A stretch of 64,000 bases of DNA, from the NCBI RefSeq assembly GCF_000445475.1, contig NZ_AUPZ01000009.1, positions 85,566-149,565 of the forward strand, in the 5' to 3' direction. The notes beneath the pieces were generated by a model. The model saw nothing but the letters and a program-made list of their open reading frames with translations, had not been told where the DNA came from and ran no database searches. This document shows positions 4,689 to 42,697 of this stretch, in pieces (position 1 is the first letter of the stretch; each line of letters opens with the position of its first letter). This DNA is from Sulfurimonas hongkongensis. GTDB taxonomy: Bacteria > Campylobacterota > Campylobacteria > Campylobacterales > Sulfurimonadaceae. Position numbers and translations under genes: made by a program.

Positions 4689-5542
4689 GCTTTAATCTTT
4701 AACCAAGAGGCCGGAATATCGGAAATGTTCTTACCTTTTTGTGCCATAAAAATGATAGTTGCAAGCATAGCTCTAGCACTTGAGTCTCCACCTGCTTTTG
4801 CGTTAGCAATTAGCATCTCTTTAAGATTCTCGTGTCTGTATAACAGATGCACAACTCCGACAAATCCACCATCTATATCACAACTTGGTCCAAAATCTCT
4901 GATGGCTTGCAGTGTATCATCACTCTTTGAAGCAACACCTCTATCCACATACGCTTCTGTTTTTGCATCAAATTTATCTTTAAGAGCCATGATAGACTCT
5001 TTTATATCTTTGCCATCTAACACTTCAAGCAGTAAAGTGGCAAAAAACTTAGCTGTTGTTATAGCCTTATCTGAATTATGAGTACATTTTACAAAACTCT
5101 CTACATTTTGCAAAAACTCTTTCTTTGAATTTGAGACTAACAAAAGTGGAGCAATCCTTCCAACAATGGATAAATCAGTTGAAGACGCACCACTAGCAGA
5201 GATATTGTTTTTGATATTTATCAGAGTATCTTTTGAAGAGCCATCGATATATCCATCATAACTACTCATTTTATCTGCCCAAAACTCTACATATGCATCT
5301 GCATCAAACTTATCTTTATCTTTTAAAAACTCATATAACCATAAAGTTTGATCCCCATAGTGGGTAAAATCTCCAGCCATTTTACCTTTGTGCCAAGGAG
5401 CTTTTGCATCGTTTAACTCATCCCAATCTATATCAAGATTTTCAAGCTCTTTTTCATCATAGACCCAATGCGATCCTAAAGAGTAAGCATCAGCCACCAA
5501 TGAACTAAGCACCAATTCTTTTACTTTTTTCTTATCAAACAT
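4652..5542 (-). CDS. ADP-ribosylglycohydrolase family protein with altered metal-site motifs
   Basis: A 296-aa all-helical protein of the DraG/ARH fold family. The N-terminal motif is LVADAYSLGSHWVYD (15-29), in place of the usual GDALG stretch. The region normally TDDT reads HYGDQT (61-66), and the usual C-terminal GGDTDT reads GGDSSA (251-256). These positions carry the binuclear Mg ligands in canonical enzymes, so some ligands appear changed. It may act on another substrate or bind metal differently. It ends inside the opposite FNT gene. Confidence 0.75.
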   Translation of the reverse strand: MFDKKKVKELVLSSLVADAYSLGSHWVYDEKELENLDIDWDELNDAKAPWHKGKMAGDFTHYGDQTLWLYEFLKDKDKFDADAYVEFWADKMSSYDGYIDGSSKDTLINIKNNISASGASSTDLSIVGRIAPLLLVSNSKKEFLQNVESFVKCTHNSDKAITTAKFFATLLLEVLDGKDIKESIMALKDKFDAKTEAYVDRGVASKSDDTLQAIRDFGPSCDIDGGFVGVVHLLYRHENLKEMLIANAKAGGDSSARAMLATIIFMAQKGKNISDIPASWLKIKAYVKSLFAPVLM

Positions 5543-5748
5543 TTTAGCTCCTTAGTTTTTATTTATATATATTTTAAGCCATATGTATCTTACCATTTTA
5601 TCAATTTTGTTCCCTATTATTTTTCACAACAATGCAAATAAGAAAATTAAATAATTTGATTTAACTGCCTAAAAATAAAATATTATTGTACAATAGTGTT
5701 ATCTGCAATGATAAAACATTTCAGCTCTTTAAAATTTAGGAGTTTATC

Positions 5749-5964
5749 ATGGGAAAAGGTTTAGGAATCTCCGTAAGAGTTATCGGTCTCATTTTAGCGG
5801 TTGTAGGGGTTGGTTTTGCAGTGTGGGGGTATCAGTTATCTGGTTCTATCGGATCACAAGTGACACAAGTTGTTACTGGTGCAAATACAGATAGGGTAAT
5901 GACTTATTATATTATTGGTGCTGTGAGTTTTGTCGTTGGCATCTATCTTTTACGCAAAAAGTAA
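5749..5964 (+). CDS. Small membrane protein, DUF3185 family
   Basis: A 71-aa protein with two hydrophobic helices (about 8-30 and 50-68) flanking a short loop with SQVTQVVTGANTDRVMTYY. This layout and the TG..TDR motif fit DUF3185, whose function is unknown. The start follows an AGGAG ribosome-binding site. The next small membrane-protein gene lies about 60 bp downstream on the same strand. Confidence 0.75.
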   Translation: MGKGLGISVRVIGLILAVVGVGFAVWGYQLSGSIGSQVTQVVTGANTDRVMTYYIIGAVSFVVGIYLLRKK

Positions 5965-6022
5965 AGAATTAGTTTTTAATGGGCTATACTCCAAAAAAAT
6001 TTATTAACAACAGGAGAAAAAA

Positions 6023-6169
6023 ATGCTTGAGACTATTGCAATAATCCTGATCATTCTTTGGCTTTTAGGATTTGTCAGCTCATACACTTTGGGAGGATTT
6101 ATTCATATTCTCTTAGTCATTGCACTCGTAGTTATTCTACTTCGTGTTATTCAAGGAAGACGGATATAG
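6023..6169 (+). CDS. Very small membrane protein, lmo0937-like
   Basis: A 48-aa ORF starting MLETIAIILIILWLLGFVSS and ending RVIQGRRI. It has two hydrophobic segments and a basic tail. AGGAG lies 7 bp upstream of the ATG. Size and the LWLLG...GG.IHILLVIA pattern resemble the lmo0937 family of small membrane proteins, often linked to envelope stress in other bacteria. Function is not established. It is probably cotranscribed with the DUF3185 gene. Confidence 0.7.
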   Translation: MLETIAIILIILWLLGFVSSYTLGGFIHILLVIALVVILLRVIQGRRI

Positions 6170-6198
6170 AGGGTCCAAAAAGGACTCTTTATAAGATT

Positions 6199-7410
6199 CT
6201 ACTCATGCCTTAGAGCATCTATAGGGTTGAGTCTTGCCGCTTTTCTCGCTGGAAAATATCCAAAAACAACTCCTACAATTGTTGAGAAGAAAAAGGCTAC
6301 TAAAATTATAGGTATATTAAAAATAAGTGGCAATTCAAAAAAGAGTGCAACCCCAATTCCTGCACCTACCCCGACAATAATGCCCAAAATCCCTCCAATA
6401 GAAGCAAGAACTATTGACTCTATTAAAAACTGCAATAGCACCTCCCTCTCTAACGCTCCAACAGCGAGACGTATACCTATCTCACGTGTTCTCTCTGTAA
6501 CAGAGACTAGCATAATGTTCATGATGCCGATACCACCAACTAAAAGACTGATGGCTGCTACTGCTCCAAGTAAAATAGTGAGTATCTGTGTCGTAGAAGA
6601 GAGAGTTTGAACCATCTCTCGCATATCGTGGACATTAAAATCATTCTCTTGCCCAACCTGAATCTTACGTCGCTCCTGTAAAAGTGAGATAAGAGATGCT
6701 TTTACACCCTCTATTGATGAAGCGCTGTTTGCTGAAATCATAATTCTTCCTATCTCCTGATTTCCACTTATACGTCTTTGAAACATTTTTATAGGTGTTA
6801 CAATAATGGCATCTTGATCCATTCCAAACATTGCCGCACCTTTTGATTCAAGCAGTCCAACAATCTCACATGAGAAGTTCTCAAGTCTTATAAGCTCTCC
6901 TACAGGATCAAGTGTGCCAAAGAGTTCTTTTCTAACTGTCTCACCGATAACACAAACAGTTTTTCCACCTTGAAGTTCTGATGGTAAAAAATCTCTCCCT
7001 GAGGCAAAAACCCAATCTTTAACTATAAAGTAATCATTATCACTTCCCTCAACAGTGGTTGCATAGTTTTTATTAGCATATACTGCTTGCATTTGGCTTG
7101 AGCTAACAGGAGCGACGCCGCGGATATTGATAATCCCCCCTTTAAGTGCATCAATATCGCTATGGGTAAACCTTCGAGCCGTAGAGTCAGTGCTTGGAGG
7201 ACCCTGTCTTTGCTGCCCTGGTATAACCATAAGCATGTTTGTACCAAGTTTAGAGATGCTCTGTGTGACATAGGCTGTTGTAGCATCTCCTAGCATTATC
7301 ATCGCAATAACAGAAGCTATCCCAATAACAATTCCAAGCGTTGTTAACACCGAACGCATAACACTTCTGCGAATTTCACGAAGAGCAAGTAAAAAAGCAT
7401 TCCAAATCAT
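6199..7410 (-). CDS. macB: ABC transporter permease, MacB type
   Basis: A 403-aa permease with one N-terminal transmembrane helix, a periplasmic MacB_PCD domain (about 20-240) and a C-terminal FtsX domain with three helices (about 280-396). The motif GGIGIMNIMLVSVTERTREIGIRLAVGA is typical of MacB/FtsX permeases. The ATPase is a separate gene overlapping by 4 bp (ATGA), so this is a split MacB. It is the last gene of the TolC-adaptor-ATPase-permease operon, a tripartite exporter for a peptide, toxin or small molecule of unknown identity. Confidence 0.9.
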   Translation of the reverse strand: MIWNAFLLALREIRRSVMRSVLTTLGIVIGIASVIAMIMLGDATTAYVTQSISKLGTNMLMVIPGQQRQGPPSTDSTARRFTHSDIDALKGGIINIRGVAPVSSSQMQAVYANKNYATTVEGSDNDYFIVKDWVFASGRDFLPSELQGGKTVCVIGETVRKELFGTLDPVGELIRLENFSCEIVGLLESKGAAMFGMDQDAIIVTPIKMFQRRISGNQEIGRIMISANSASSIEGVKASLISLLQERRKIQVGQENDFNVHDMREMVQTLSSTTQILTILLGAVAAISLLVGGIGIMNIMLVSVTERTREIGIRLAVGALEREVLLQFLIESIVLASIGGILGIIVGVGAGIGVALFFELPLIFNIPIILVAFFFSTIVGVVFGYFPARKAARLNPIDALRHE

Positions 7411-8108
7411 AAATCTGCTTCCGAATCTTCGATGTACTCTATAGCGCCATCTCTAAAATGAACCCTTCTTGAGGCATATTCTGCCATCTCTACCTCATGC
7501 GTTACCATCAGTATAGTAATTTTCTTTTTACGATTAAAAGATTGTAAAAGCTCCATAATCTCTATACTTTTTGCACTGTCAAGGTTTCCGGTTGGCTCGT
7601 CTGCTAGTAAAATAAGCGGCTTTGTAGCAATAGCACGAGCGATGGCAACACGCTGTTGTTGCCCACCTGAGAGTTCCCCGGGAGTGTGATGTGCGACTTG
7701 CTCAAGTCCAACACTCTTTAGGGCGTCCATTGCCATCTCATGTCTCTCTTGTGCATTGTAACCACGATAAAGAAGTGGAAGTTCTACATTTTCTATGGCA
7801 GTTGTTTTCCCAAGCAGGTTAAAACCTTGAAATATAAAGCCAATATAGTTTCTCCTCAGTAGTGCACGCTGATCTCGGGAGAGTGCCTCAACATTGATCC
7901 CCTCAAAAATGTACTCTCCGCCACTTAGAGTATCAAGACATCCTATCATATTCATAGCAGTTGATTTGCCAGATCCACTAGGTCCCATGATGGCTAAAAA
8001 TTCTCCACGCTTGACTTTTAAATCTACACCGCGCATCGCATATGTTTTTGCTTCATTTTCGCCATATGTTTTTGTAGCCCCTCGTAACTCTATGATAAAT
8101 TCTTTCAT
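7407..8108 (-). CDS. ABC transporter ATP-binding protein, MacB/LolD type
   Basis: A 233-aa nucleotide-binding subunit. Walker A is GPSGSGKST (42-50), the Q-loop is FIFQGFNLL (91-99), the signature LSGGQQQRVAIARA (146-159), Walker B LILLADEP (165-172), followed by GNLDS and the switch His in MVTHE. It overlaps both neighbours by 4 bp, indicating translational coupling with the adaptor and the permease. It energises the MacB-type exporter from the cytoplasm. Confidence 0.93.
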   Translation of the reverse strand: MKEFIIELRGATKTYGENEAKTYAMRGVDLKVKRGEFLAIMGPSGSGKSTAMNMIGCLDTLSGGEYIFEGINVEALSRDQRALLRRNYIGFIFQGFNLLGKTTAIENVELPLLYRGYNAQERHEMAMDALKSVGLEQVAHHTPGELSGGQQQRVAIARAIATKPLILLADEPTGNLDSAKSIEIMELLQSFNRKKKITILMVTHEVEMAEYASRRVHFRDGAIEYIEDSEADL

Positions 8109-9313
8109 GACTCTTTTATTCCGATTAGAACAAGATCCTTTTCACTAAGCTTTGATTTTTTTATAACAGTTAAACTACCATCACTCTTACCTACCTCAAC
8201 CTCAACTCTAACAGGTTTATTCTCTCTTAAAGTCCAAACATGGTGTTTTAAAGCATCCGCTTTAACATGCCTAGAACTATTTTTCTCTTTTATAGGTGGA
8301 GTAAATCGGAGTGCTGCATTTGGTAAAACTAAAACATCTTCTAAAACATCTGTGACAATCTGGGCTGTAACCGTCATTCCCGGTCTTAAAAAAAGCTCAG
8401 AATTGTCCACATTTACAACAGCATCATAAGTTACTACACCGTTTACTATTTGGGAATTAAGACGCAATTGTGTTAGCGTTCCCTCAAAAACCATCTCTGG
8501 ATAAGCATCAACGCTAAAGTTTACTCTCTGCTGCTCTTTTACATCTGCAATATCTGCTTCATCAACACTTACAACTACTTTCATTTTAGTCAAATCTTCT
8601 GCCATAGTAAAGAGTACAGGTATCGTCATAGCCGAGACTACACTCTGCCCTGGTTCAACTTTTCTATCTAATACCACCCCGTTTATAGGAGAGACAACAG
8701 CTGCTTTTTTAAGATCATCTTGTGCAGCCTTTAGCTCAGCACTAGCCTGATCACGCCCAGCTTTTGCAGCTTGCAAAGAAGCCTTTGCTAGTTCATAAGT
8801 AGTAAAAGCAGAGTCAACTTCCTGCTTTGATGGATAGTTTCCATTAGTTGCCTCAACCATTTTTTTTACTCGAATCCACTCCTTTTTTGCCTTGTTTAAC
8901 GAGGCAGTGGCTTCTGCGATATTTGCTTCAAGTTTTGCAAGTCCTGCTTGGTAACTTGTTACTTTTGAGGATAGTTTTACCGTGTCAAGTCGTGCCATCA
9001 GCTGCCCTTTTTTGACTCTCTCGTTATAATCTACTAAGACCTCGCTTATGGTCCCTGAGACTTCTATACCTACATCAACTGTATTTGTCGGCTCCATATT
9101 TCCAGTTGCTAAGACCGTTGTAGTAATGGTTTTTCTCTCTAAAGTAGTTGTATGATAGTTTAACTCTTTATCTTTTGCCCCATATGTAAGATACCAAAAA
9201 ATAGCTCCAGCGATAAGAAGCACAAAAAGAGAAATCCATATATATTTTTTATAGCTGCTCTTTTTGTTTTTACCTATATTTAGAGTCTCTTCTATCGTTT
9301 TGTTATTGTCCAT
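8105..9313 (-). CDS. macA: Periplasmic adaptor (membrane fusion) protein, MacA-like
   Basis: A membrane fusion protein of about 402 aa: cytoplasmic N-tail, one transmembrane helix (IWISLFVLLIAGAIFWYL), split lipoyl domain (TVDVGIEVSGTISEVLVDYN and later SPINGVVLDRKVEPGQSV), an alpha-hairpin coiled coil, and beta-barrel domains. Three consecutive ATG codons occur at 9319-9311. I chose 9313 because AGAGGA lies six bases upstream of it. Its 5' end overlaps the tolC gene. It links the inner-membrane MacB permease to the TolC-like channel. Confidence 0.88.
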   Translation of the reverse strand: MDNNKTIEETLNIGKNKKSSYKKYIWISLFVLLIAGAIFWYLTYGAKDKELNYHTTTLERKTITTTVLATGNMEPTNTVDVGIEVSGTISEVLVDYNERVKKGQLMARLDTVKLSSKVTSYQAGLAKLEANIAEATASLNKAKKEWIRVKKMVEATNGNYPSKQEVDSAFTTYELAKASLQAAKAGRDQASAELKAAQDDLKKAAVVSPINGVVLDRKVEPGQSVVSAMTIPVLFTMAEDLTKMKVVVSVDEADIADVKEQQRVNFSVDAYPEMVFEGTLTQLRLNSQIVNGVVTYDAVVNVDNSELFLRPGMTVTAQIVTDVLEDVLVLPNAALRFTPPIKEKNSSRHVKADALKHHVWTLRENKPVRVEVEVGKSDGSLTVIKKSKLSEKDLVLIGIKES

Positions 9314-10514
9314 CATCATTCCTCTTAAGTGCAAAATGGAGCTTTGCCAGCTCAATTTGTATGTTTATCTCACTTAGTTTTATATTTAGTTCCTCGATCG
9401 CTTTTGTATTTTTTATAGTTTGTAAATCATACCCCGTTTTTTCTCCTGTGTTTACTCCTGCTTCTATAGCTTCAATAAGCTCATCATACAAAGAGAGATT
9501 TTTTAAAGTTATCTCATTATAGCTACGATAACTCTCTATAAGTTCTATCGATTGGGTATAAGAAGCTTTGGTATTTCTATACATATCTGCAACTTGGGCA
9601 GCTTGTTTTAAGTAACTAGCTTTTGCTTCTTGCGTTGTTGCCGTCGCATTGTATGTAAAGGGCACATTAAGCATGACTCTTGCACCATAGTAATTTCCAT
9701 CATACTTGTTTTCATACTTTTTTGAATCATACTCTTGATATCCAACATTGGCACTTAGTGTAACGCTGGGCATATAGCTACTCTTTGTCACACTATAAAG
9801 AGACTCATAACTTTTTGTTTGCAAGCGAAGGAAGTTTAGATTCAAATTGTTTTGAAGATAGGTCTCTTTCTCTATAAGAGTAAATTTGGGAAGTAAAAAT
9901 ACAGCTGGATCAACGTCACTTAACTTTGAGACTTCTTCTCTTAGCTGTGCGAGCATATACTTGTGTGTAACTAAATTTTTCAATTCATCGCTTTGTGCCA
10001 TCAGTGCATTGTTTAACTCTGTAATATCAGCCTTACCTACATCATAGAGTTGTCTTTTTATAAAAATTTCTATCTCTTTGTTTTTAAGTATCAACTCACT
10101 CTGCTTTTTTTGGTAGAGCGTTTTTTTGTAGTTTAAAAGTGCACTAAAAAGCTCTTCATTTATAGCTGCTATCTCTTTTGCAAGTGCAATCTCATCTACT
10201 CTTTTTTTGGCATCTGCATACTCTATCTGGTATGTTATACCTCCAGAGCGAAAGATATCTTGAGAGATGGAGACTGAGATATTTGAGGTTGTGCCATAAT
10301 CTCCTGTATATACTTTATCATATCCATAAGAAGCTCCTAAATTAAGAGGTGCTATCCAGTTGTATCTTAGTTTTTCATACTCTGATTCATATCTATTTTG
10401 TTCTTGAAGCAAAAGATTTTGCTTCTCTTGAGAAAGGAGCTCCTTATCATTAGCACTTAGTGATATGAAAGCTAAAAGATGAAATATTATATAAAGAGGA
10501 ACACTATTTTTCAT
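9303..10514 (-). CDS. TolC-family outer-membrane efflux protein
   Basis: A 403-aa protein with a signal peptide (about 1-21, MKNSVPLYIIFHLLAFISLSA) and two repeated long helical hairpins of the OEP fold. Strand segments read GASYGYDKVY and SANVGYQEYD. It is the first gene of the exporter operon and overlaps the start of the adaptor gene. It is predicted to form the trimeric outer-membrane duct. No substrate-specific feature can be seen. Confidence 0.88.
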   Translation of the reverse strand: MKNSVPLYIIFHLLAFISLSANDKELLSQEKQNLLLQEQNRYESEYEKLRYNWIAPLNLGASYGYDKVYTGDYGTTSNISVSISQDIFRSGGITYQIEYADAKKRVDEIALAKEIAAINEELFSALLNYKKTLYQKKQSELILKNKEIEIFIKRQLYDVGKADITELNNALMAQSDELKNLVTHKYMLAQLREEVSKLSDVDPAVFLLPKFTLIEKETYLQNNLNLNFLRLQTKSYESLYSVTKSSYMPSVTLSANVGYQEYDSKKYENKYDGNYYGARVMLNVPFTYNATATTQEAKASYLKQAAQVADMYRNTKASYTQSIELIESYRSYNEITLKNLSLYDELIEAIEAGVNTGEKTGYDLQTIKNTKAIEELNIKLSEINIQIELAKLHFALKRNDDGQ

Positions 10515-10560
10515 TCTTATCCTTAAACTTTTTAGAAATCATGTAATTATACACTTAAAG

Positions 10561-10873
10561 AAGATAGCTATAGAAAATGAAGAAGAAATGAGTCGCTTAG
10601 GCTTTAATAATTTAAAAAGTTGACTTTAAAGGTGTAACAGTTATACCCATCTCTACAAACATTTTTGGTGAAGACTTAAGAGTTTTTATACTCAAAAGAG
10701 ACAAACTAAAAAAACAGAGTAAGGTTTGCATCAATGAACTTTGCACCTTAGACATAACTAGAATACAACTAGACAATCTCCCAACAACTCTCTTAGAAGA
10801 TAAGCTTGAAGAAGTAAACATGAAGCTCTTAAGACATTTTAAGACCCCTGCAAACCCCTTTGTGCTAAAATAG
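10561..10873 (+). pseudogene. Remnant of a MazE/MazF-type toxin-antitoxin module
   Basis: Read on the plus strand, 10619-10873 encodes 84 residues that match the middle and C-terminus of MazF/PemK toxins: VTVIPIST, an RVFILKRDKL strand pair, then LCTLDITRIQLDNLPTTLLEDKLEEVN. There is no start codon, an in-frame TAA lies just upstream at 10613, and the N-terminal third with the RGDI-type active-site region is absent. Just before it, another frame ends IENEEEMSRLGFNNLKS (stop at 10621), which could be the tail of the antitoxin. The last 12 codons and the stop are supplied by the CRISPR repeat. I read this as a truncated, dead module. Confidence 0.6.
10836..10871 (+). CRISPR. Single 36-bp type II CRISPR repeat (array relic)
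   Basis: A 36-bp unit beginning ATTTTAAGACCCC and ending TTTGTGCTAAAAT, with inverted ends. It pairs along almost its whole length with the anti-repeat at 10965-11003: 20 bp contiguous at one end, 8 bp at the other, and an internal bulge. Only one clear copy is present. A possible degenerate 3' end (GTGGTAAAAT, one mismatch) ends at 10928 but the rest of that window does not match. Orientation is set by the tracrRNA, whose GGGACTTAAAAT end should pair with the 5' end of the repeat. No spacer array is visible in the window. Confidence 0.75.
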
Positions 10874-10928
10874 GGTCTCATACAGCCTTGTATAGTGGGG
10901 CGTATGAGAAGATTATGAGTGGTAAAAT

Positions 10929-10958
10929 TTGACTTTTCATCTTCTTTTTGAGTACAAT
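10929..10958 (+). promoter_or_regulatory. Promoter of the tracrRNA
   Basis: TTGACT (10929-10934) and TACAAT (10953-10958) are separated by 18 bp. This is close to the sigma-70 consensus, and the anti-repeat begins seven bases after the -10 box, where a transcript would start. No ORF follows on this strand. Confidence 0.7.
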
Positions 10959-10964
10959 ATTTAT

Positions 10965-11064
10965 GTTTTAGCACAAAGGGGTTTGTGTAGCGGGACTTAA
11001 AATAATCCTTCGACTTTATTGTCGTTGGAGATTTTGGAATCATCAAAATAGCAATAGCTGTTTT
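10965..11064 (+). ncRNA. tracrRNA of the type II CRISPR system
   Basis: About 100 nt. The anti-repeat is 10965-11003 (GTTTTAGCACAAAGGG ... GGGACTTAAAAT). It is followed by a stem at 11006-11029 (TCC-TT-CGAC, loop TTTATT, GTCG-TT-GGA), a short stem GATT-TTGG-AATC (11030-11041), and a terminator hairpin. The order anti-repeat, short stem-loops, terminator is the usual tracrRNA plan in type II-C loci. It is transcribed opposite to the cas genes, and its 3' end overlaps the last codons of cas2 in antisense. A dedicated promoter lies directly upstream. Confidence 0.7.
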
Positions 11065-11375
11065 GGTGCATTCTTTTCATTTTCTTCTTTTGTACCTACG
11101 ATTATATCCATATTTCCAAACTGCTTATCTGTAAACATAATCATCCTTATGCTTCCTTTTGCTATGTTTGAAGCTATAAAATCTTTGAGCCTTTTTTTTC
11201 CATTTAAAGTTGATTCGTAAGAGTGAAATGAGCGAATGTAGATAGAAAACTGCATCATCATATACCCTTCTTTTAGAAGCTCACCACGTAAATAACGGTA
11301 CTTCTTTCTTGCTTTTTTTGTATCGGTCGGCATATCAAACATTACCATTAGCCACATAAATCTATAAGCACTCAT
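11043..11375 (-). CDS. cas2: CRISPR-associated endoribonuclease/integration subunit Cas2 (type II)
   Basis: I chose ATG 11375, giving 110 aa beginning MSAYRFMWLMVMFDMPTDT, because type II Cas2 proteins start in this way; ATG codons at 11381 and further upstream in the same frame are alternatives. The ferredoxin-like first strand carries the conserved Asp (MFDMP). EGYMMMQFSIYIR and later MIMFTDKQFGN also match the family. Cas2 bridges two Cas1 dimers during spacer integration. The start lies 11 to 14 bp beyond the chimera's stop region, overlapping it slightly. Size and motifs look intact. Confidence 0.93.
   Translation of the reverse strand: MSAYRFMWLMVMFDMPTDTKKARKKYRYLRGELLKEGYMMMQFSIYIRSFHSYESTLNGKKRLKDFIASNIAKGSIRMIMFTDKQFGNMDIIVGTKEENEKNAPKQLLLF
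11045..11064 (+). terminator. Rho-independent terminator of the tracrRNA
   Basis: AAAATAGC (11045-11052), loop AATA, GCTGTTTT (11057-11064): an 8-bp stem with one G-U pair, with the U run forming the 3' arm. It lies inside the 3' end of cas2 on the other strand. Confidence 0.5.
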
Positions 11376-12024
11376 CTTCATACTTTTCAAAGTCAATGCT
11401 TGGGAGCATTAAGTAGAGTATCTTTTTTTGAAGCACACATTTTTGTAACGATTGGACTGTCATATCTATTGCAGTTCTTATATTGCTTAGACCTCCGTTT
11501 ATAGCTACGAATTCTAAATTTAAAATATTGACATATTCTTGTTTTATTTGGCTAGTTAAGGCCTCATCATCATATTTTAAAAGAGTTAGTTTTACATGCA
11601 GATCCACAAAAGCTCTATATGGTTCTATCATATCATCTGCAAGATTAAAAGCGTTGAAATAGTTTTGATGGTGGATTCCAAAAGATGGCATAAGCCCCGC
11701 ATTTGTGAGTGAACGGACAACAGCACTTCTTACAATTGCATAGCAGTAGTTAAGCGAAGCATTTTGCACATCTTCTGCTCCTTTTTGTACTCTTACAAAG
11801 TTTTCAAATAATTCGCTCCAGTAGATTCTTGCTGCTTTTGCTTCTACATTTTCCTCATCATTTGACTTGACACCCTTTGCATACTCGTAGAGAATCTTAG
11901 AAGATTTTTTTCTGTTAAAATAGTTTAAAACTGATGCTTGATTTTTCACTTTTGTTTTAACTACTTCTTGCCAAAGTTGTTTTTTAAGTGGTTTTGATAT
12001 ATCTATCTGGTTGTGCTTGGATAC
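11362..12024 (-). other. cas1: Cas1-derived portion of the Cas9-Cas1 fusion
   Basis: These 220 codons from about residue 1005 (VSKHNQIDISKPLKKQLWQ) to the stop match the C-terminal helical catalytic domain of type II Cas1. The metal-binding Glu, His and Asp residues are all present. Full type II Cas1 proteins are about 300 aa, so roughly 80 N-terminal residues, the beta domain that forms the Cas1 dimer interface, are lacking. The exact joint lies within about 20 codons of 12024. Confidence 0.82.
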
Positions 12025-15000
12025 TTTGTTTTTTACATAACTTCTTATGTCAATCCTTTGAAGTTTTAGTTTTTTAGCATCTATAAAACTACATCTAAGA
12101 CAGACAAGTGAAGGAGCTGTATAAGCCAAGCCTCCTCTTACTTCTATAGAAGCATCCTCTCCTACTCTTTTTACTCTTCGTATCTCATTACCGTTTACAT
12201 CGTATAGAGGCTCATTCATAGTATCTCGTACTTTTATATCAAGCTCGGCTTTATCATCTTTTGTGATTGCAAAAGCCGATTGGTTCAAGATATTTACGAT
12301 GGCATCTCTTTTTTTTGCAAATACTTTTGCTGTAAAATCTTTTGGATTATCTTGAGCAACTTGGATTTTTTTATAAATCTCTTTATTAAATTTTTTATAA
12401 AATTCATCGGAACTCATTTTGTGACTCGGTTTGACTTTATCTAGCAGAGAACCAATCGGCACATAGTAAGCCAAATTTTTCTTAGATTGAATCGTCTCAT
12501 TATGTGCCTTTGTTCCTATCGGTTTTTTAGAGACCCAAAAGGCTGGAGTTTTAAGAGTTCCATCAAGTGCTTTATAAAAAGGACTCTCTTGTATATCTTG
12601 CATGTAACTCTCTCTTATATGGGCAATTATATGATTAGGGGATGTTCCTTCTATGAGTGGAACAATCTTTTTAAAGTTCTCTTTTGCATTTTGTTCGGTA
12701 AGCTCATAATTTTTCTCAAAATTTGTAGAGATATTTTGTAAGTAAGATTTACTCATTAAACCTAGGAGAATAGCATCCTCGGCATGATGAAAGTTTGTAT
12801 CACGAGACTTGTTATCGACACTTAGTATGCGTCTTAGGTAACTTGTAGCACGCCCAGAGATAGACATCACTCTTTGATTCTCTTTGAGTCTGTCTGTAAA
12901 AGGGTAGTAGCGTTTTAAAATCTCACCCAAAAGTTTTTCAGTATAGCTTGTTGCATGGAGCGATACATCATCTTTTACCTCTTTAAAGGTTTTATCTAAG
13001 CTCTCGGCTAAGAGATTTATTTTTTTCTTCATATTTATCTTATAGGTTTTTTTTAACTCTTCTACAAAGTCAATATAAATTTTTCTCTTTTCTCCACTTA
13101 AATAATCAAGAGGTAGCTTATTACCTTTTTTAGCATTTTCATTTTTTAAATCAAGAGCCTTGTTGTACTCTGCATTGCTTCCGCCACAAGCACGAGGAAC
13201 AATGTGTTCTATCTCTGTTTTATCACTCAAGACTTCATCAATACTAAGCGGTTTATGTGAGTAGATTCCTAGTCCTTTTTGTTGCTCCCAAAGCTTAAGT
13301 TTTAGAAGATACTCTTTATTATTTTGAAGATTTAATCCCTTTGCTTCAAAATGTTTTTTGTATTTTTCAATGAGCTCTTGCCACTCTTTTTCATTTTTTT
13401 GGTTTGCTCTTCTAATGTCATTTTTTACATCATCAGGCTGTGAGAGTTCTCTAGTAGATTCTAGTTTTATGATATCAAAAGGTCCATGTTTGACATGCAA
13501 ATCAGTTATAACTCGAAGTGCCCATGAGACTAGAGATTTTACAGCATGGTTAGATATACGATTCTCATCTATCTCGTACTGTAGTTTTCCATCTTTATTT
13601 TGAGATTTTAGATATCTAATGCCTTTTAAAAAATCGGAATAGTTTTCGCTTTTACTGACTTTTAAAATCCCTTTTGCATCACTCTCATTTTTACCCTCTT
13701 GCATTAAAGCAGTTAAATCTTTTAATGCTTTTAGTGAATAATTTGAAGTTCCTTTTGATTTATGTTTATGAAGTTTAAGAGTAAAATCACAAATCTCATC
13801 TTTGGTAAACTCAAAATTGTATTTTTTAAAAAGTATTTCAATGTTTATTAAAAGTTTTTCAGGATTTATATTTAGATGTATCTCTGTTGCGATTTCATCA
13901 AAGATTTTTGCAGATGACTCTTGTGCTAAGATGGCACTTAAAATTTTACGATTCAATTTTTTAAAAGAAGGAAGAAAATTAAATTTAACAAGAGTATTTG
14001 CCTCTTTTTTTCCTTTAAGCATTTTATACTCTTGAAAATTATTGATTTTTACATATTCATTATCAATTCCTAGTATCTTTTTAAAATCTTTTACACTATA
14101 AGAGCTTTTGCACTTCAAACTATTTATATCTTCTAAAAGTGCTTCACGCAACTGCTCTTTTTGCTCTAAAGTTGCATCAGCACCGTCAATCTTCAGATCT
14201 CCAAGTAACTTATATAGTTCAAATATATCAAATGAGTATGAAAAAAGAGGTGCACATATCTCATCTTTATAGATTAGACATTTATTGATATTTTCTGGAT
14301 TTAGCGTAACAGCTTCTTGCGGGATGATGATGTTTATCACTTCATTGGTAAATTTAGCGGCCAACTCATCACTTTTAAAAAAATCAAACTTTTGCTGAGC
14401 TCCTAAGATTTTTTCTATCTCTTTTTTTATGTCTTCTCTACGTATCATATAGCGGTAGTTACCATGATTTCTAAAAGTAGGATTCTCTTTTTGAGATTCT
14501 AGCTCCCAAATAATTTGTGCAGATGTTTTCTCTTTGTATTTGCACTTTAGAGCATCTAAGTATGCCAGTGTTTCAGAAAACTTCTCCAAATCTTTTGGCA
14601 TCTGGATTTCATCACTCCCGCAATCACCCATCTTCTCTTTTGCTTCAAGTTCGGCTATCAAATCTTCTATTTTTAGTGATTTATACCCTCTATGCTTTGC
14701 CATAAATCTAAAAATTGCATAGAGCTCATCATTGTCAAGTTTTCTCTTAAATGCATCTACCGCTCTTAATTTCCAAATATCATATCTCTTTTTTTCTTGA
14801 TACTTAAGGTGATAAGAGGCAAAGAGCTGCTTTATCTCTTTAATCCTCTTTTTTTTCTTATCAAGAAGATTTCGAGATTGTTTTTTCTCTCGTCTTTCTT
14901 GTTGGGTACCACTATCATGAGGATTGTCACGCATTACTACGCCATAATCTAAAAGAGAGTAGCTATTTTTTTCAAGCTCTTGCATTACAGAATATCCGCA

Positions 15001-15036
15001 AGAGGTAACGCCTAAGTCTAATGATAAAATATTCAT
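11362..15036 (-). CDS. cas9-cas1: Cas9-Cas1 in-frame fusion protein
   Basis: A continuous 1224-codon ORF with AAGGA before its ATG. Cas9 part (1 to about 1004): RuvC-I LSLDLGVTS with Asp7; Arg/Lys-rich bridge helix (about 48-70); helical recognition lobe; RuvC-II IIKLESTRE with Glu526; HNH EIEHIVPRACGGS with His611; RuvC-III FHHAEDAILLGL with His750/His751 and Asp754; and IEVRGGL (964-970), which normally opens the WED/PAM-interacting region. Instead of the expected 300 or so further residues, Cas1 sequence follows: ISKPLKKQLWQ (about 1013-1023), EAKAARIYW with Glu1065, GIHHQNYFNAF with His1123, and LADDMIEPYR with Asp1134/1135. The Cas1 N-terminal beta domain (about 80 residues) and the Cas9 PAM-interacting domain are missing. 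No stop or frameshift interrupts the ORF. Confidence 0.9.
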   Translation of the reverse strand: MNILSLDLGVTSCGYSVMQELEKNSYSLLDYGVVMRDNPHDSGTQQERREKKQSRNLLDKKKKRIKEIKQLFASYHLKYQEKKRYDIWKLRAVDAFKRKLDNDELYAIFRFMAKHRGYKSLKIEDLIAELEAKEKMGDCGSDEIQMPKDLEKFSETLAYLDALKCKYKEKTSAQIIWELESQKENPTFRNHGNYRYMIRREDIKKEIEKILGAQQKFDFFKSDELAAKFTNEVINIIIPQEAVTLNPENINKCLIYKDEICAPLFSYSFDIFELYKLLGDLKIDGADATLEQKEQLREALLEDINSLKCKSSYSVKDFKKILGIDNEYVKINNFQEYKMLKGKKEANTLVKFNFLPSFKKLNRKILSAILAQESSAKIFDEIATEIHLNINPEKLLINIEILFKKYNFEFTKDEICDFTLKLHKHKSKGTSNYSLKALKDLTALMQEGKNESDAKGILKVSKSENYSDFLKGIRYLKSQNKDGKLQYEIDENRISNHAVKSLVSWALRVITDLHVKHGPFDIIKLESTRELSQPDDVKNDIRRANQKNEKEWQELIEKYKKHFEAKGLNLQNNKEYLLKLKLWEQQKGLGIYSHKPLSIDEVLSDKTEIEHIVPRACGGSNAEYNKALDLKNENAKKGNKLPLDYLSGEKRKIYIDFVEELKKTYKINMKKKINLLAESLDKTFKEVKDDVSLHATSYTEKLLGEILKRYYPFTDRLKENQRVMSISGRATSYLRRILSVDNKSRDTNFHHAEDAILLGLMSKSYLQNISTNFEKNYELTEQNAKENFKKIVPLIEGTSPNHIIAHIRESYMQDIQESPFYKALDGTLKTPAFWVSKKPIGTKAHNETIQSKKNLAYYVPIGSLLDKVKPSHKMSSDEFYKKFNKEIYKKIQVAQDNPKDFTAKVFAKKRDAIVNILNQSAFAITKDDKAELDIKVRDTMNEPLYDVNGNEIRRVKRVGEDASIEVRGGLAYTAPSLVCLRCSFIDAKKLKLQRIDIRSYVKNKVSKHNQIDISKPLKKQLWQEVVKTKVKNQASVLNYFNRKKSSKILYEYAKGVKSNDEENVEAKAARIYWSELFENFVRVQKGAEDVQNASLNYCYAIVRSAVVRSLTNAGLMPSFGIHHQNYFNAFNLADDMIEPYRAFVDLHVKLTLLKYDDEALTSQIKQEYVNILNLEFVAINGGLSNIRTAIDMTVQSLQKCVLQKKILYLMLPSIDFEKYEDECL

Positions 15037-15109
15037 AAAAGATCCTTATATTTTATTAGATTTAAACATCTTACAATAATTTATTTGTTTAAAAATCACA
15101 TTATCTTAT

Positions 15110-15958
15110 TTATATTTCTACTAAAACCCCATAAGATGTTGGTTGTCTATCTCGCAGAAGTCCCCAATACTCTCTTTGTTTTGCTATCTCCTCTAAATCA
15201 AACTCTGCATAAATAATCTCTTCTTTATCTCTTGAGGCCTCAGCAATTTTTTTGCCCGTGTAGTCTGTGATGAAAGATGAACCGTAAAATGTTAGAGTAC
15301 AACTCTCCCCTACTTCTTCGCCTATACGGTTTGCAACTACTACTGGAACTGTGTTTGTAGCGGCGTGACCCATCTGAACTCTTTGCCAGTGGTCTTTTGA
15401 GTCAACATGAATTTCTGGTTCACTCCCAATAGCAGTAGGATAGAAAATAATCTCAGCACCCATCAGAGTTAGAGCTCTTGCTGTCTCACAAAACCACTGA
15501 TCCCAACAGATACCAACTCCAATCTTAGCGTACTTTGTGTTATAGACTTTAAAGCCACTATTTCCCGGTTTGAAGTAAAACTTCTCTTCATATCCAGGTC
15601 CACAGGGTATATGAGTTTTTCTATAGTTGTCCATAATTTTGCCATCAGCATCTACCACAACTAAAGAGTTAAAATACTCTTTAGCACTTTTTTCAAAATA
15701 ACTAACAAGCAAAACAACACCTAGCTCTTTTGCAAGAGTTGCAAATCTCTCTATAAGGCTACTGTCTTTAAGCTCTGAGGCTAAAGAGAAGTACTTATCA
15801 TCCATATCTTTACAAAAGTACAAAGATGCAAACAACTCTGGTAAAAGTATGATTTTTGCACCATTTTTATTTGCTTGTCTTACCAAAACCTCAGCATTTT
15901 TTATGTTGGCATCTATATCTTGGCTCATCTGCATCTGTATAGCTGAGACTTTTATCAT
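15110..15958 (-). CDS. aguB: N-carbamoylputrescine amidase
   Basis: A 282-aa nitrilase-superfamily enzyme. The catalytic triad is visible as Glu41 (LLPELFAS), Lys114 (YRKTHIP) and Cys151 (GICWDQWFCE). The stretches PGYEEKFYFKPGNSGFKV and ICWDQWF are characteristic of the AguB branch, which converts N-carbamoylputrescine to putrescine, CO2 and ammonia in the agmatine route. No aguA lies in this window. The gene stands alone behind the cas operon, separated by 73 bp. Confidence 0.9.
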   Translation of the reverse strand: MIKVSAIQMQMSQDIDANIKNAEVLVRQANKNGAKIILLPELFASLYFCKDMDDKYFSLASELKDSSLIERFATLAKELGVVLLVSYFEKSAKEYFNSLVVVDADGKIMDNYRKTHIPCGPGYEEKFYFKPGNSGFKVYNTKYAKIGVGICWDQWFCETARALTLMGAEIIFYPTAIGSEPEIHVDSKDHWQRVQMGHAATNTVPVVVANRIGEEVGESCTLTFYGSSFITDYTGKKIAEASRDKEEIIYAEFDLEEIAKQREYWGLLRDRQPTSYGVLVEI

Positions 15959-16083
15959 TTTTGTATCCTGTGGGGAAATAATAGTGTCATTTTACTATAA
16001 ATTTTGTATTAATTTCTTATATTTATTATAACTTAACTAAATATTGATTATAATTTTACAAAATTTACAACCAAAGGAATCTG

Positions 16084-17058
16084 ATGCAAACTTCTGTCTG
16101 TGTAGATGCAAGATCACTCGAATACTTTCCTGTTCAGTTGTTTGCTATTATCATGGGATTATCTGGATTTGCTATAGTTTTTGCTAAAGCTTATCATATT
16201 TTAGATTTTTCATACTGGTTTTATGCATTCATACTTTTTATTGACACACTTTTGTTTTTAGTCATATTTACCTCTTATATGTTAAAAATAGCGAGTTACC
16301 CAGAGGCTGTTAAAGGGGAGATAAACCATCCTATAAAAAGCTCTTTTATGGCTAGCATCTCTGTTAGTCTTTTACTTCTAAGCATAGCTTACTATGACTT
16401 TGCACCGACTCTATCTATAGTGCTTTGGTTTATAGCCACACCTCTGCAACTCTTTTTTACGCTTGTTGTTATGAAGTACTGGATTCATAACGACCTAGAA
16501 GTAGTTCATAGCAATCCTGCGTGGTTTATCCCCATAGTTGGAAATGTTTTAGTTCCTGTTGTTGGAGTCGATGCAGCGCCAATCTTCGTCTCACTCTTTT
16601 TCTTCTCGCTTGGGATGTTTTTTTGGATAGTGCTTTTTACTATTATGATCAACAGAATCATCTTTCACAATCCACTAGCTAAAAAGCTTATACCAACTTT
16701 TTTTATCTTTATAGCTCCGCCTGCGGTTGGATTTGTCAGCTATCTTAAAATCACAAATGGTTCTATAGATATGTTCTCAATTTTTCTATACTCTATCGCG
16801 CTCTTTACGCTTTTACTGCTTTTGTTTATGTTGCGTATGTATGATGTAAAGATGTTTTTCATTTCTTGGTGGGCATACACTTTCCCACTAGCTGCCATCA
16901 CAATAGCCACACTTTTAATGCACAATATATATCACTCAACTTTCACATATATAGCATCTCTATCACTCATCGCTTTTTTAACCCTAGTAGTTGGCTACGT
17001 AGCCCTAAAAACCATCCAAGCCTTCAAGGCTCAGAAAATATGTATATCAGAGGAATAA
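16084..17058 (+). CDS. TDT/SLAC1-family anion or dicarboxylate transporter
   Basis: A 324-aa membrane protein with about ten hydrophobic helices. The opening FPVQLFAIIMGLSGFAIVFAKA and the central NPAWFIPIVGNVLVPVVG are typical of the TehA/Mae1/SLAC1 family, which carries tellurite-resistance proteins, malate permeases and anion channels. AAAGGA precedes the ATG. Substrate cannot be assigned. The DUF302 gene follows after 3 bp and is probably cotranscribed. Confidence 0.85.
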   Translation: MQTSVCVDARSLEYFPVQLFAIIMGLSGFAIVFAKAYHILDFSYWFYAFILFIDTLLFLVIFTSYMLKIASYPEAVKGEINHPIKSSFMASISVSLLLLSIAYYDFAPTLSIVLWFIATPLQLFFTLVVMKYWIHNDLEVVHSNPAWFIPIVGNVLVPVVGVDAAPIFVSLFFFSLGMFFWIVLFTIMINRIIFHNPLAKKLIPTFFIFIAPPAVGFVSYLKITNGSIDMFSIFLYSIALFTLLLLLFMLRMYDVKMFFISWWAYTFPLAAITIATLLMHNIYHSTFTYIASLSLIAFLTLVVGYVALKTIQAFKAQKICISEE

Positions 17059-17061
17059 TAA

Positions 17062-17568
17062 ATGAATAAATTATCACTTTTTGTAGGCATCGCTTTAGGT
17101 TTAGTCTTTAGCATCTTTGTAGTTGGCATCGCTTTTAAAGTAGCAGCTCCATCTATTCTTTTAAAAGAGATAACATCGCCTTATGAATTTGACAAAACTC
17201 TAAAAATCTTAGAAGATAGACTAAATGCAAAAGAGGGTTGGCATGTAACAGACATCATCGACCAACAAGAAGAGATTATTACTCACGGTGGAGCAGACAC
17301 GGGCAAGGTTAAGATCATCAAGTTTTGTAACGCTAAGTATGCGTCAGAGATGTTGAGTGCAGACGAGGGCAAAGTTATGTCTACAAATATGCCTCTTAGC
17401 ATCTCCGTTTATGAAAAGAGTGATGGACGAGTTATGATAGGTCTGAGCAATGGTTATATGATGGCAAGACTTTTCTCAGGACGAAGAGAGGGTCTCATTA
17501 TGCAAAAAGTTGTAAGCGAGATGGAAGAGGTTTTAAACTTCACTCACTTTAGATTTACTATATTTTAG
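17062..17568 (+). CDS. DUF302 domain protein, membrane-anchored
   Basis: A 168-aa protein with an N-terminal membrane anchor or signal (5-30) followed by a DUF302-like alpha/beta domain: LNAKEGWHVTDIIDQQ, KVKIIKFCNAKYASEML, MPLSISVYEKSDGRVMIGLSN. DUF302 proteins are of unknown biochemical role and often accompany redox or sulfur genes. It is coupled to the TDT transporter gene. Its stop overlaps the end of the convergent histidine kinase gene by 4 bp. Confidence 0.78.
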   Translation: MNKLSLFVGIALGLVFSIFVVGIAFKVAAPSILLKEITSPYEFDKTLKILEDRLNAKEGWHVTDIIDQQEEIITHGGADTGKVKIIKFCNAKYASEMLSADEGKVMSTNMPLSISVYEKSDGRVMIGLSNGYMMARLFSGRREGLIMQKVVSEMEEVLNFTHFRFTIF

Positions 17569-19514
17569 TCTTCTAATGGGAGCTTGATGGTAAATCTAGC
17601 TCCTTTATCTATATTTTCAACACTCAGGCTTCCTTGCATATTTTTTTCTATTATCATTTTTGACATGTAGAGTCCTATGCCAGTTCCTTGGTTTTTGTGC
17701 TTTGTGCTAAAGTATGGATCAAAGATTTTGTTCTTTATCTCTTTTGGTATCCCTCCGCCATTATCACTTACTAAAATATACGCATCTTTAGTATCTTTAT
17801 AGGCTCTTATCTCTATCTTTTTTTTATCTATTTTATTTGCTAAGAGTGCATCTTTTGCATTGTTTAAGATGATAAGCATAACTTGTTGAAGTTCATTTTT
17901 AACATTTAAAAGTCTTATATCTTTGTCAATGTCAAGGCTTACTTTTATGTTAGAGTACTCAAGCGTAGTTCCTATGATGCTTAGCATAGAGTCTATCACC
18001 TCATCAAGTAGATAACTCTCTTTTTTCTTGTCACTCTTATAGTAATTTCTAAAGTCATCAATGGTATCAGACATATATCTGATGTTGTTGTCTATGCCTT
18101 CGTGGATGCGGTTAAAGTCGTCATCACTTAGTTTGCTTAGTTGTTTTTTAAAGTACATATCTTGGTTTAACAGCCCTATGTCATTTAGAGGTTGTCTCCA
18201 CTGATGGGCGATTTGCTCTATCATCTCACCCATTGATGCTAGCCTTGATTGCTCAATGAGTATTTTATCTTTTTGCCTCGCCTTTTTTAGAGCTATCTCT
18301 ACTTCTAATTTTAGATTTTTGTTATGGTCTTTTAGCTTGTTAGTGTACTCATCGTGGAGCCGTTTAAGCCTTTCAGCAAGAGCTGCTGAGAGCAAAATCA
18401 TCTCAACACCTGATGCTGCTTGTTGTACATACTTCATAGCAAAATAGCCAGATATAAGATTAAATTTACTAAGTGTAAACAAGAGTGTTCCAAGCAAAAA
18501 TATCCCCCAACCTAGAACAAAGAGTCTTATAGAGTAGTAATCTTTTTTCATAACCATCCAACCAGCAACTAAAAGAACTAAAGGAATTATAATAGAAAGA
18601 GATGCACCCACTAATATAGTATATTTGTAAGGCATGAGTGCTGAGACAACTATGCCAAGGATTGAGAGATAGATAAATGGACCAAGAACATATTTGTCAT
18701 ATTTTGGGATATTATTTTTTGAATTTAAGAGACTTTGACTAAAGATTAGTTGGAAAAATATACTCGTAGAGATGAAAAACACCGCTCCTTTTTCTCTCAT
18801 CCAAGCATTTTCTTGCCAAACATAGAGCCACCCTAAGCCATCAAAAGAGAGTTGCCAAAGAGCATAAGATGCAACAAAAGCTATATATAAAACATAAATC
18901 TTCTCTTTTGTATATATATACGCTATAAGATTATAAAATATCAAAACAAGCAAGATTCCATAGTAGATACCAGAGAGACTTTGATGCAGATGGGTGTGTT
19001 CAAGAAGAGCCTTGCTACTTATAATCTCCATGGGAACGAGCATAGAACTTGAGGTTTTTACCTTTACATATAGCGTATGAGTCTCTGTAGAATTGTTTGT
19101 AAGAGAAAAAACAAGGTTGTGGTGCTTTATATCTCTTTCATAAAGCGGGTACAAATCTCCACTCTTTTTATGTGAAATAAGTTGATTATTTGCATCAAGC
19201 AAATATACATCCACAAAATCAAGCAAAGGATAGTCTATAGAGAGCCACCACTCTTTTCTTTTCATAGCTTCATTATAATTAAACTTAAGCCTAAACCAGT
19301 GTACTTTAGCGAGAAACCCAAAGTTTGGTATACATTCAGAGTATTTTTCAAACTCTTTGGTCTGTATATCTTTGAGTGTAGCATCTTCCTTTTCATCTAC
19401 ATAAAACTCAAGTTGGGTACCCAATATATAGGGTTCTTGCTCTTGAGTAACTCTTAATATTTCGCTCGAAGATAAAAAGCTAGCAAAAAATAATATTAAA
19501 AATAGACATCTCAT
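17565..19514 (-). CDS. 7TM-DISM sensor histidine kinase
   Basis: A 649-aa protein: signal peptide (1-17), periplasmic 7TMR-DISMED2-type beta domain (about 25-165), seven transmembrane helices (about 180-380), short coiled coil (385-420), HisKA with the phospho-acceptor His437 in IAHQWRQPLND, and a HATPase_c domain with N-box NNAKDAL, G1 DNGGGIP and G2 GTGIGLYMSK. DISM ectodomains usually bind carbohydrates or other small ligands. No response regulator is adjacent. It is divergently oriented from the mod operon. Confidence 0.92.
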   Translation of the reverse strand: MRCLFLILFFASFLSSSEILRVTQEQEPYILGTQLEFYVDEKEDATLKDIQTKEFEKYSECIPNFGFLAKVHWFRLKFNYNEAMKRKEWWLSIDYPLLDFVDVYLLDANNQLISHKKSGDLYPLYERDIKHHNLVFSLTNNSTETHTLYVKVKTSSSMLVPMEIISSKALLEHTHLHQSLSGIYYGILLVLIFYNLIAYIYTKEKIYVLYIAFVASYALWQLSFDGLGWLYVWQENAWMREKGAVFFISTSIFFQLIFSQSLLNSKNNIPKYDKYVLGPFIYLSILGIVVSALMPYKYTILVGASLSIIIPLVLLVAGWMVMKKDYYSIRLFVLGWGIFLLGTLLFTLSKFNLISGYFAMKYVQQAASGVEMILLSAALAERLKRLHDEYTNKLKDHNKNLKLEVEIALKKARQKDKILIEQSRLASMGEMIEQIAHQWRQPLNDIGLLNQDMYFKKQLSKLSDDDFNRIHEGIDNNIRYMSDTIDDFRNYYKSDKKKESYLLDEVIDSMLSIIGTTLEYSNIKVSLDIDKDIRLLNVKNELQQVMLIILNNAKDALLANKIDKKKIEIRAYKDTKDAYILVSDNGGGIPKEIKNKIFDPYFSTKHKNQGTGIGLYMSKMIIEKNMQGSLSVENIDKGARFTIKLPLED

Positions 19515-38702: not shown

Positions 38703-38786
38703 AGAGGCACAAGTGCCGAGGGCTTCCTGCCGAAGGAATCCAAGCGATAGCGTAGGTAGCGGAATTACTTCCGATACCGTGACAAA
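38703..38786. repeat. 84-bp tandem duplication, unit 1
   Basis: Begins AGAGGCACAAGTGCCGAGGG and ends GATACCGTGACAAA. It is identical to the unit at 38793-38876 as far as I can read. It is GC-richer than the surroundings and contains inverted segments (GGCAC-AA-GTGCC, CGGAA...TTCCG). It begins directly after the trxB stop. Confidence 0.9.
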
Positions 38787-38792
38787 ATAAGC

Positions 38793-38876
38793 AGAGGCAC
38801 AAGTGCCGAGGGCTTCCTGCCGAAGGAATCCAAGCGATAGCGTAGGTAGCGGAATTACTTCCGATACCGTGACAAA
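38793..38876. repeat. 84-bp tandem duplication, unit 2
   Basis: Second copy of the element, with a period of 90 bp and a 6-bp spacer (ATAAGC) between copies. The dapB leader hairpin follows directly. Confidence 0.9.
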
Positions 38877-42146: not shown

Positions 42147-42697
42147 TGTCCTTTGACTGTAACAAAGTCTGCAACCTGCCTAAAATATGGTGGCCAATCA
42201 AAATAGACCCTAAATGGCTCTGCTTGACCTGGTTTTAAGTTTCTTGCAACTACAAACTCTTTTATTATGGTTTGCGGTTTATATGAAAGATTTGCTCCGC
42301 CAGTAAAAAAACCAAAAAATCCGCTTGATTTGAAAAAACTTCCACCCTTTACATTTCCTGTAGCATGCCCTTTGTTTACAAGCTTAATCTCAACTATAAC
42401 CTCACCAATTTCATGATTACCATCGTTTTTGACTATTCCACTGTATGAGATTTTTTCTATACTTAAAAGTCTTTTGCTCTCAACTTTAAATATAGACACT
42501 TTTTTGGTGTACTTATCTACTATAACTATTGAAAAAACTCCTAATAGTGTGCTTATAAGAACTGTAGATACTACTATAGGAAAAACAAGCTTTTTATCTT
42601 TTTGCTTATATGCTGAGAAGATTCCACCTGCACAAATCAAAACTACTATCAGTAAAGCTATATAGTGCCAATAATTAAGTAGAGTTATTAGTTGCAT
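42143..42697 (-). CDS. DUF2393 family membrane protein (copy B)
   Basis: A 184-aa protein with two N-terminal transmembrane helices (12-27, 38-60) and a beta-rich C-terminal domain that resembles an immunoglobulin-like fold (KISYSGIVKNDGNHEIGEVIVEIKLVN). DUF2393 proteins are typical of Campylobacterota and of unknown function. It overlaps the start of the upstream paralogue by 10 bp. Confidence 0.75.
   Translation of the reverse strand: MQLITLLNYWHYIALLIVVLICAGGIFSAYKQKDKKLVFPIVVSTVLISTLLGVFSIVIVDKYTKKVSIFKVESKRLLSIEKISYSGIVKNDGNHEIGEVIVEIKLVNKGHATGNVKGGSFFKSSGFFGFFTGGANLSYKPQTIIKEFVVARNLKPGQAEPFRVYFDWPPYFRQVADFVTVKGH

Follow-up and report, generated by a model that had tools for sequence, protein, structure and literature searches.

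The stretch analysed here, called the window, comprises 64,000 nucleotides of Sulfurimonas hongkongensis (bases 85566–149565 of contig C9, NZ_AUPZ01000009.1, in an assembly of 2.30 Mb and 28 contigs) and carries a type II-C CRISPR (clustered regularly interspaced short palindromic repeats) locus in which cas9 and cas1 form a single open reading frame. This frame occupies 11362–15036 on the reverse strand, begins with ATG and holds 1224 codons. Family profiles identify both partners: TIGR01865 (NCBIfam, E = 1e-123) and HNH_4 (Pfam, E = 1.1e-10) assign the front of the product to Cas9, with Cas9_RuvC scoring 22.8 bits, below its cut-off of 27, while TIGR03639 (NCBIfam, E = 1.3e-56) and Pfam Cas_Cas1 assign the end to Cas1, the former to its type II form. 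Because the TIGR03639 match pairs fusion residues 994–1197 with profile positions 75–277 of 278, the start of Cas1 is missing.

Three segments make up the product, all on the reverse strand: a Cas9 part of residues 1–1009 (12010–15036), a joint of four residues, Gln-Ile-Asp-Ile, at 1010–1013 (11998–12009), whose codons are present in both Cas9 and Cas1 relatives, and a Cas1 part of residues 1014–1224 (11362–11997). In the Cas9 part, D7, E526, H611, H750, H751 and D754 are invariant in the window and three relatives. Similarly, all 31 Cas1 sequences compared share E1065, H1123, D1134 and D1135 of the Cas1 part, which are positions 64, 122, 133 and 134 of a Cas1 fragment that starts at fusion residue 1002. 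The end of the fused frame is overlapped by cas2 (11043–11396, reverse strand; 117 amino acids; TIGR01573, E = 1.3e-15), a gene expected of a type II-C locus. An earlier, sequence-only reading had described one 1224-codon frame with Cas9 followed by Cas1, had named these residues and had placed cas2 next to the fusion; the frame list, the family matches and the comparison with relatives bear this out. No further adaptation gene such as csn2 or cas4 lies between cas9 and the array, as 11043–15036 contains the fused frame and cas2 only, judged from the list of open reading frames for 8000–18500, without family searches of the flanking frames.

The joint and the losses on either side

To place the joint, we compared the window with G005, the closest relative with DNA available for comparison, a genome of the same genus that we take to be Sulfurimonas crateris (P0125). 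Its type II-C locus has the same order of cas9, cas1, cas2, anti-repeat and repeat, and its proteins are 83% identical to the Cas9 part and 87% identical to the Cas1 part. It differs in that cas9 and cas1 are full length and separate, encoding proteins of 1115 and 308 amino acids (the latter with a GTG start as listed), in having a 115-residue Cas2, and in carrying 17 repeats and 16 spacers. The cas1 frame of G005 is not the frame of its cas9. The Cas9 of the window follows that of G005 and of two further relatives (P0002 and P0003) up to the Gln-Ile-Asp-Ile of the joint, and the residues beyond it are those that follow Gln-Ile-Asp-Ile within Cas1. In G005, 596 nt separate the Cas9 and Cas1 counterparts of the joint, and these 596 bp, equivalent to 102 Cas9 residues and about 93 Cas1 residues, are absent from the window at this position. 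A search of the rest of the assembly did not recover the missing stretch (best match E = 0.18) or a second type II Cas1, for which the only match in the assembly is the fusion itself.

A search of 17-mers between the last 330 nt of cas9 and the first 330 nt of cas1 in G005 showed that the joint coincides with the best direct repeat between the two gene ends, at which 15 of 17 nt are identical; the repeat at the time of deletion is thus read from G005 as a stand-in for the direct ancestor. Both G005 copies encode Gln-x-Asp-Ile, each in the frame of its own gene, so that a crossover there would open the frame whatever the distance between them. Hence the repeat by itself suffices to explain why the joint is in frame, and the open frame is no evidence of selection. 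The proposal of the sequence-only reading that the two genes had been fused in frame by a deletion is therefore supported, with a short repeat identifiable at the deletion ends; its predicted interval for the joint (11900–12200) also proved correct, but the missing length is 596 bp against G005 and not the expected 1 kb or so.

Both partners were amputated. The Cas9 part still has its RuvC and HNH parts, as a type II-C Cas9 should, despite the loss of its last 102 residues, with which 6 of the 12 predicted strands of its C-terminal domain have gone. This domain of Cas9 reads the protospacer adjacent motif (PAM). A type II-C Cas1 has an N-terminal and a catalytic domain; here the helical catalytic domain alone is left, without the N-terminal domain that docks Cas2. 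The fused product would therefore not be expected to acquire spacers, since the Cas2-docking domain of Cas1 is gone, or to interfere, since half of the PAM-reading domain of Cas9 is lost and no spacer is left to guide it. An alignment covering the whole fusion set Cas1 onto the middle of Cas9 and was not used.

The remaining locus and a second CRISPR system

Beyond cas2, the G005 locus continues with an anti-repeat, followed by an array in which a 36-nt repeat occurs 17 times. The window retains a similar anti-repeat at 10965–11000 (forward strand), a predicted part of the trans-activating CRISPR RNA (tracrRNA); the window gave no Rfam match. Of the array, one repeat remains at 10836–10871 (reverse strand), with one mismatch to the G005 repeat and no spacer, and a 30-nt core of it, with up to 3 mismatches allowed, occurs only once in the whole genome. 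The spacer-bearing array of a type II-C system is thus lacking. Numbers of predicted promoters and terminators were similar to those in shuffled sequence.

The lone repeat is adjoined by the 3' end of a pemK/mazF-like gene (10616–10840, forward strand), which runs into it and of which 75 codons could be matched; across the pair (10616–10871), the first codons of this gene and any partner gene in front of it are missing. The remnant is 69% identical over its 75 residues to residues 39–113 of an intact 115-residue relative (in L079), from which it takes its name, as the remnant alone gives no Pfam match. Because the lone repeat abuts a broken gene, a second rearrangement probably struck the array end. 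Elsewhere in the window, at 38703–38876, two identical 84-nt copies lie at a spacing of 90.

The same genome encodes a type I-F system at another site (L026, G000:C13:195000-212000, and C13:194157-196644). Its Cas1f, Cas3f, Csy1, Csy2, Csy3 and Csy4 genes each score above the respective cut-off, and its array consists of 42 identical repeats spaced 60 apart, with 41 spacers. We infer that the cell would rely on this system.

Searches for further fusions

We searched for the joint in related genomes, as the sequence-only reading had suggested, and found it in none, whether in the genus, the class or a large protein set. The Cas1 part was compared with a set of 5.8 billion proteins, with candidates limited to 0.55–1.75 times the fused length (589 candidates); of the three proteins returned, one was that of the window itself and the others were two Cas9s aligned to only 13% of the query, in a search that reaches relatives sharing common short words and may let remote fusions escape. 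Among the 120 listed of 139 Cas9 homologues found, the window's protein is the only one with a Cas1 Pfam domain. Within the genus, matches to the fusion reach E = 1e-20 or better in 38 of 135 genomes. Across the class, TIGR03639 matched in 95 of 397 genomes at E = 1e-30 or better (88 above its cut-off), and among these 95, a frame longer than 900 amino acids occurs only in the window. A Cas9-Cas1 fusion family with its joint in more than one lineage was accordingly not found.

Several candidates dissolved on inspection. Apparent fusions of 1284–1308 amino acids in six Sulfurimonas genomes (G016, G116, G149, G093, G139 and G080) have a stop between cas9 and cas1 in every case by direct translation. 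Merged frames of 1284–1437 in 13 genomes gave Cas1 frames of 298–328 amino acids in a profile search and are taken, from 2 of the 13 translated directly, as a feature of the protein-search mode. The next-longest frames after the fusion in the class-wide search, in G331 (755), G346 (735) and G051 (497), rest on matches below the type II cut-off, and the 454-residue Cas1 frame of G376 is separate from the 1104-residue Cas9 frame of that genome. Truncated Cas1 genes in three genomes were considered as parallel cases, none of which proved to be a fusion: in G210 cas9 lies in several broken frames and cas1 spans two, in G418 the contig has 4459 bases, and in G287 a 1037-residue Cas9 frame is separate.

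Some of these loci have features of their own. In six Sulfurimonas genomes (L023, L053, L054, L055, L056 and L057), cas9 and cas1 share a frame and are one stop or a few codons apart, so loss of one stop would fuse them. The type II Cas1 of G376 (L076, G376:C6:38000-47000, at 5397–6758) is unusually long at 454 amino acids, matches in two stretches and has extra sequence elsewhere in its frame. The G210 locus (L073, G210:C39:34000-44000) is another decaying type II locus.

Origin of the fused frame and known systems

Taken together, these observations suggest that the fused frame very probably arose when about 0.6 kb was lost by chance between short repeats in a decaying type II-C locus, with function probably lost. 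In this model, replication slippage or short-homology joining would have made the deletion between the repeat copy close to the cas9 end and its 15/17 match inside cas1. The crossover at the Gln-x-Asp-Ile repeats would have produced an in-frame joint without any selection for the frame. The locus would have been in decay, and it is now down to one repeat and no spacer; the fused product would be inactive in both acquisition and interference, and type I-F would serve the cell.

The state of the coding sequence weighs against this model, as a locus long in decay should show stops or relaxed change. Among Cas9 columns invariant in 16 intact relatives, 3 of 430 are changed in the window, against 2 to 21 changes of 400–418 when each of the 16 is compared with the other 15; in the Cas1 part, 1 of 111 invariant columns is changed (0 to 11 of 111–122 for eleven relatives). 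Ratios of nonsynonymous to synonymous substitution rates (dN/dS), which the sequence-only reading had wished to see for the two parts separately, come to 0.080 (Cas9), 0.093 (Cas1 part) and 0.061 (Cas2), each a pairwise value against G005 only and averaged over the whole divergence. Private Cas9 changes number 30 in the window and 24 in P0002, with a mean BLOSUM62 score of 0.03 versus 0.42, a hint, from few sites, of slightly less conservative changes in the window. Little decay is therefore visible: with the frame intact and the conserved residues kept, either the deletion is recent or the frame is still under selection. We prefer recency because both partners are amputated, a lone repeat is left and no relative shares the joint. 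Of the two alternatives that the sequence-only reading had left side by side, a recent lesion thus gains from these findings, and a chimera kept by selection appears unlikely.

Such a chimera would be a protein that is made and useful, for example one in which an RNA-guided or DNA-binding Cas9 body brings the Cas1 active site to DNA. The open frame, the retained active-site residues of both parts and the absence of excess change at conserved sites all speak for it, as does the type II-A supercomplex in which Cas9 and Cas1 act together (PMC8034620). Yet its Cas1 has lost the Cas2-docking domain and its Cas9 half of the C-terminal domain, no spacer exists to guide it, the joint recurs in no relative found, and the repeat alone accounts for the open frame. 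We therefore regard selection for the chimera as very improbable. That a living cell makes a natural chimera in which a Cas1 catalytic domain replaces the PAM-reading end of Cas9 and would be carried to DNA without Cas2 is, on the sequence evidence, just as doubtful. Nor did the fused protein lend support to the idea that a covalent link serves Cas9-assisted spacer choice.

An artefact is somewhat less improbable but still unlikely: most cells might carry separate genes, with the assembler having collapsed a repeat or taken a minority variant. The assembly is in 28 contigs, and simplifications such as the joint and the lone repeat can result from assembly errors. However, the repeat measures only about 13–17 nt, shorter than the words usual in assembly, this assembly resolves the 42-copy I-F array, the searches placed the missing piece or an extra Cas1 start on no other contig, and the array end probably carries a second, different rearrangement. 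Least credible of all is that I-F self-targeting caused the deletion or that the deletion was selected to escape it. Types I-F and II-C do occur in the same cell, self-cutting can select deletions, and a spacer lost since the deletion could have been responsible. But none of the 41 I-F spacers matches the window or the G005 locus over more than 16 nt; the best match by E-value (14 nt, E = 0.005) lies outside the locus at 42251–42264, and matches within 10500–15100 are of 11–15 nt, at chance level.

As a lesion, the locus offers a snapshot of a redundant CRISPR system dying, with its array gone, a deletion between short repeats and another CRISPR type still present. Its frame has stayed open because cas9 and cas1 have the same residues encoded at the repeat. 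It also cautions against taking the in-frame fusion of two interacting genes as a sign of selection in itself. Should the protein prove functional, it would have no natural Cas9-Cas1 predecessor in the literature found, where no natural fusion is described: the exact phrase returned nothing, and variants of it returned one engineered case.

That case is a casposase Cas1-Cas9 fusion (PMC9939771, citing Lau and Bolt 2021), which unites Cas9 with a Cas1 enzyme in a single protein, as here, but is man-made, uses a casposase and belongs to no natural locus. Natural fusions of Cas1 or Cas2 include reverse transcriptase (RT)-Cas1 (type III), Cas4-Cas1 (type I-G) and Cas2-Cas3 (type I-F) (PMC6452270, PMC12259127; 7mi4, 7kft). 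In these, too, an adaptation protein is covalently linked to another Cas protein; however, they are found across many genomes with the integrase core retained, whereas the present fusion occurs in one genome and has its Cas1 N-terminal domain cut off. A further parallel is offered by reduced II-C loci such as that of Campylobacter coli clade 3, which has cas9 but no cas1 or cas2 (PMC4607530). The adaptation part has been lost in that relative within the class as it has here; there the genes are absent, while in S. hongkongensis a deletion has joined them.
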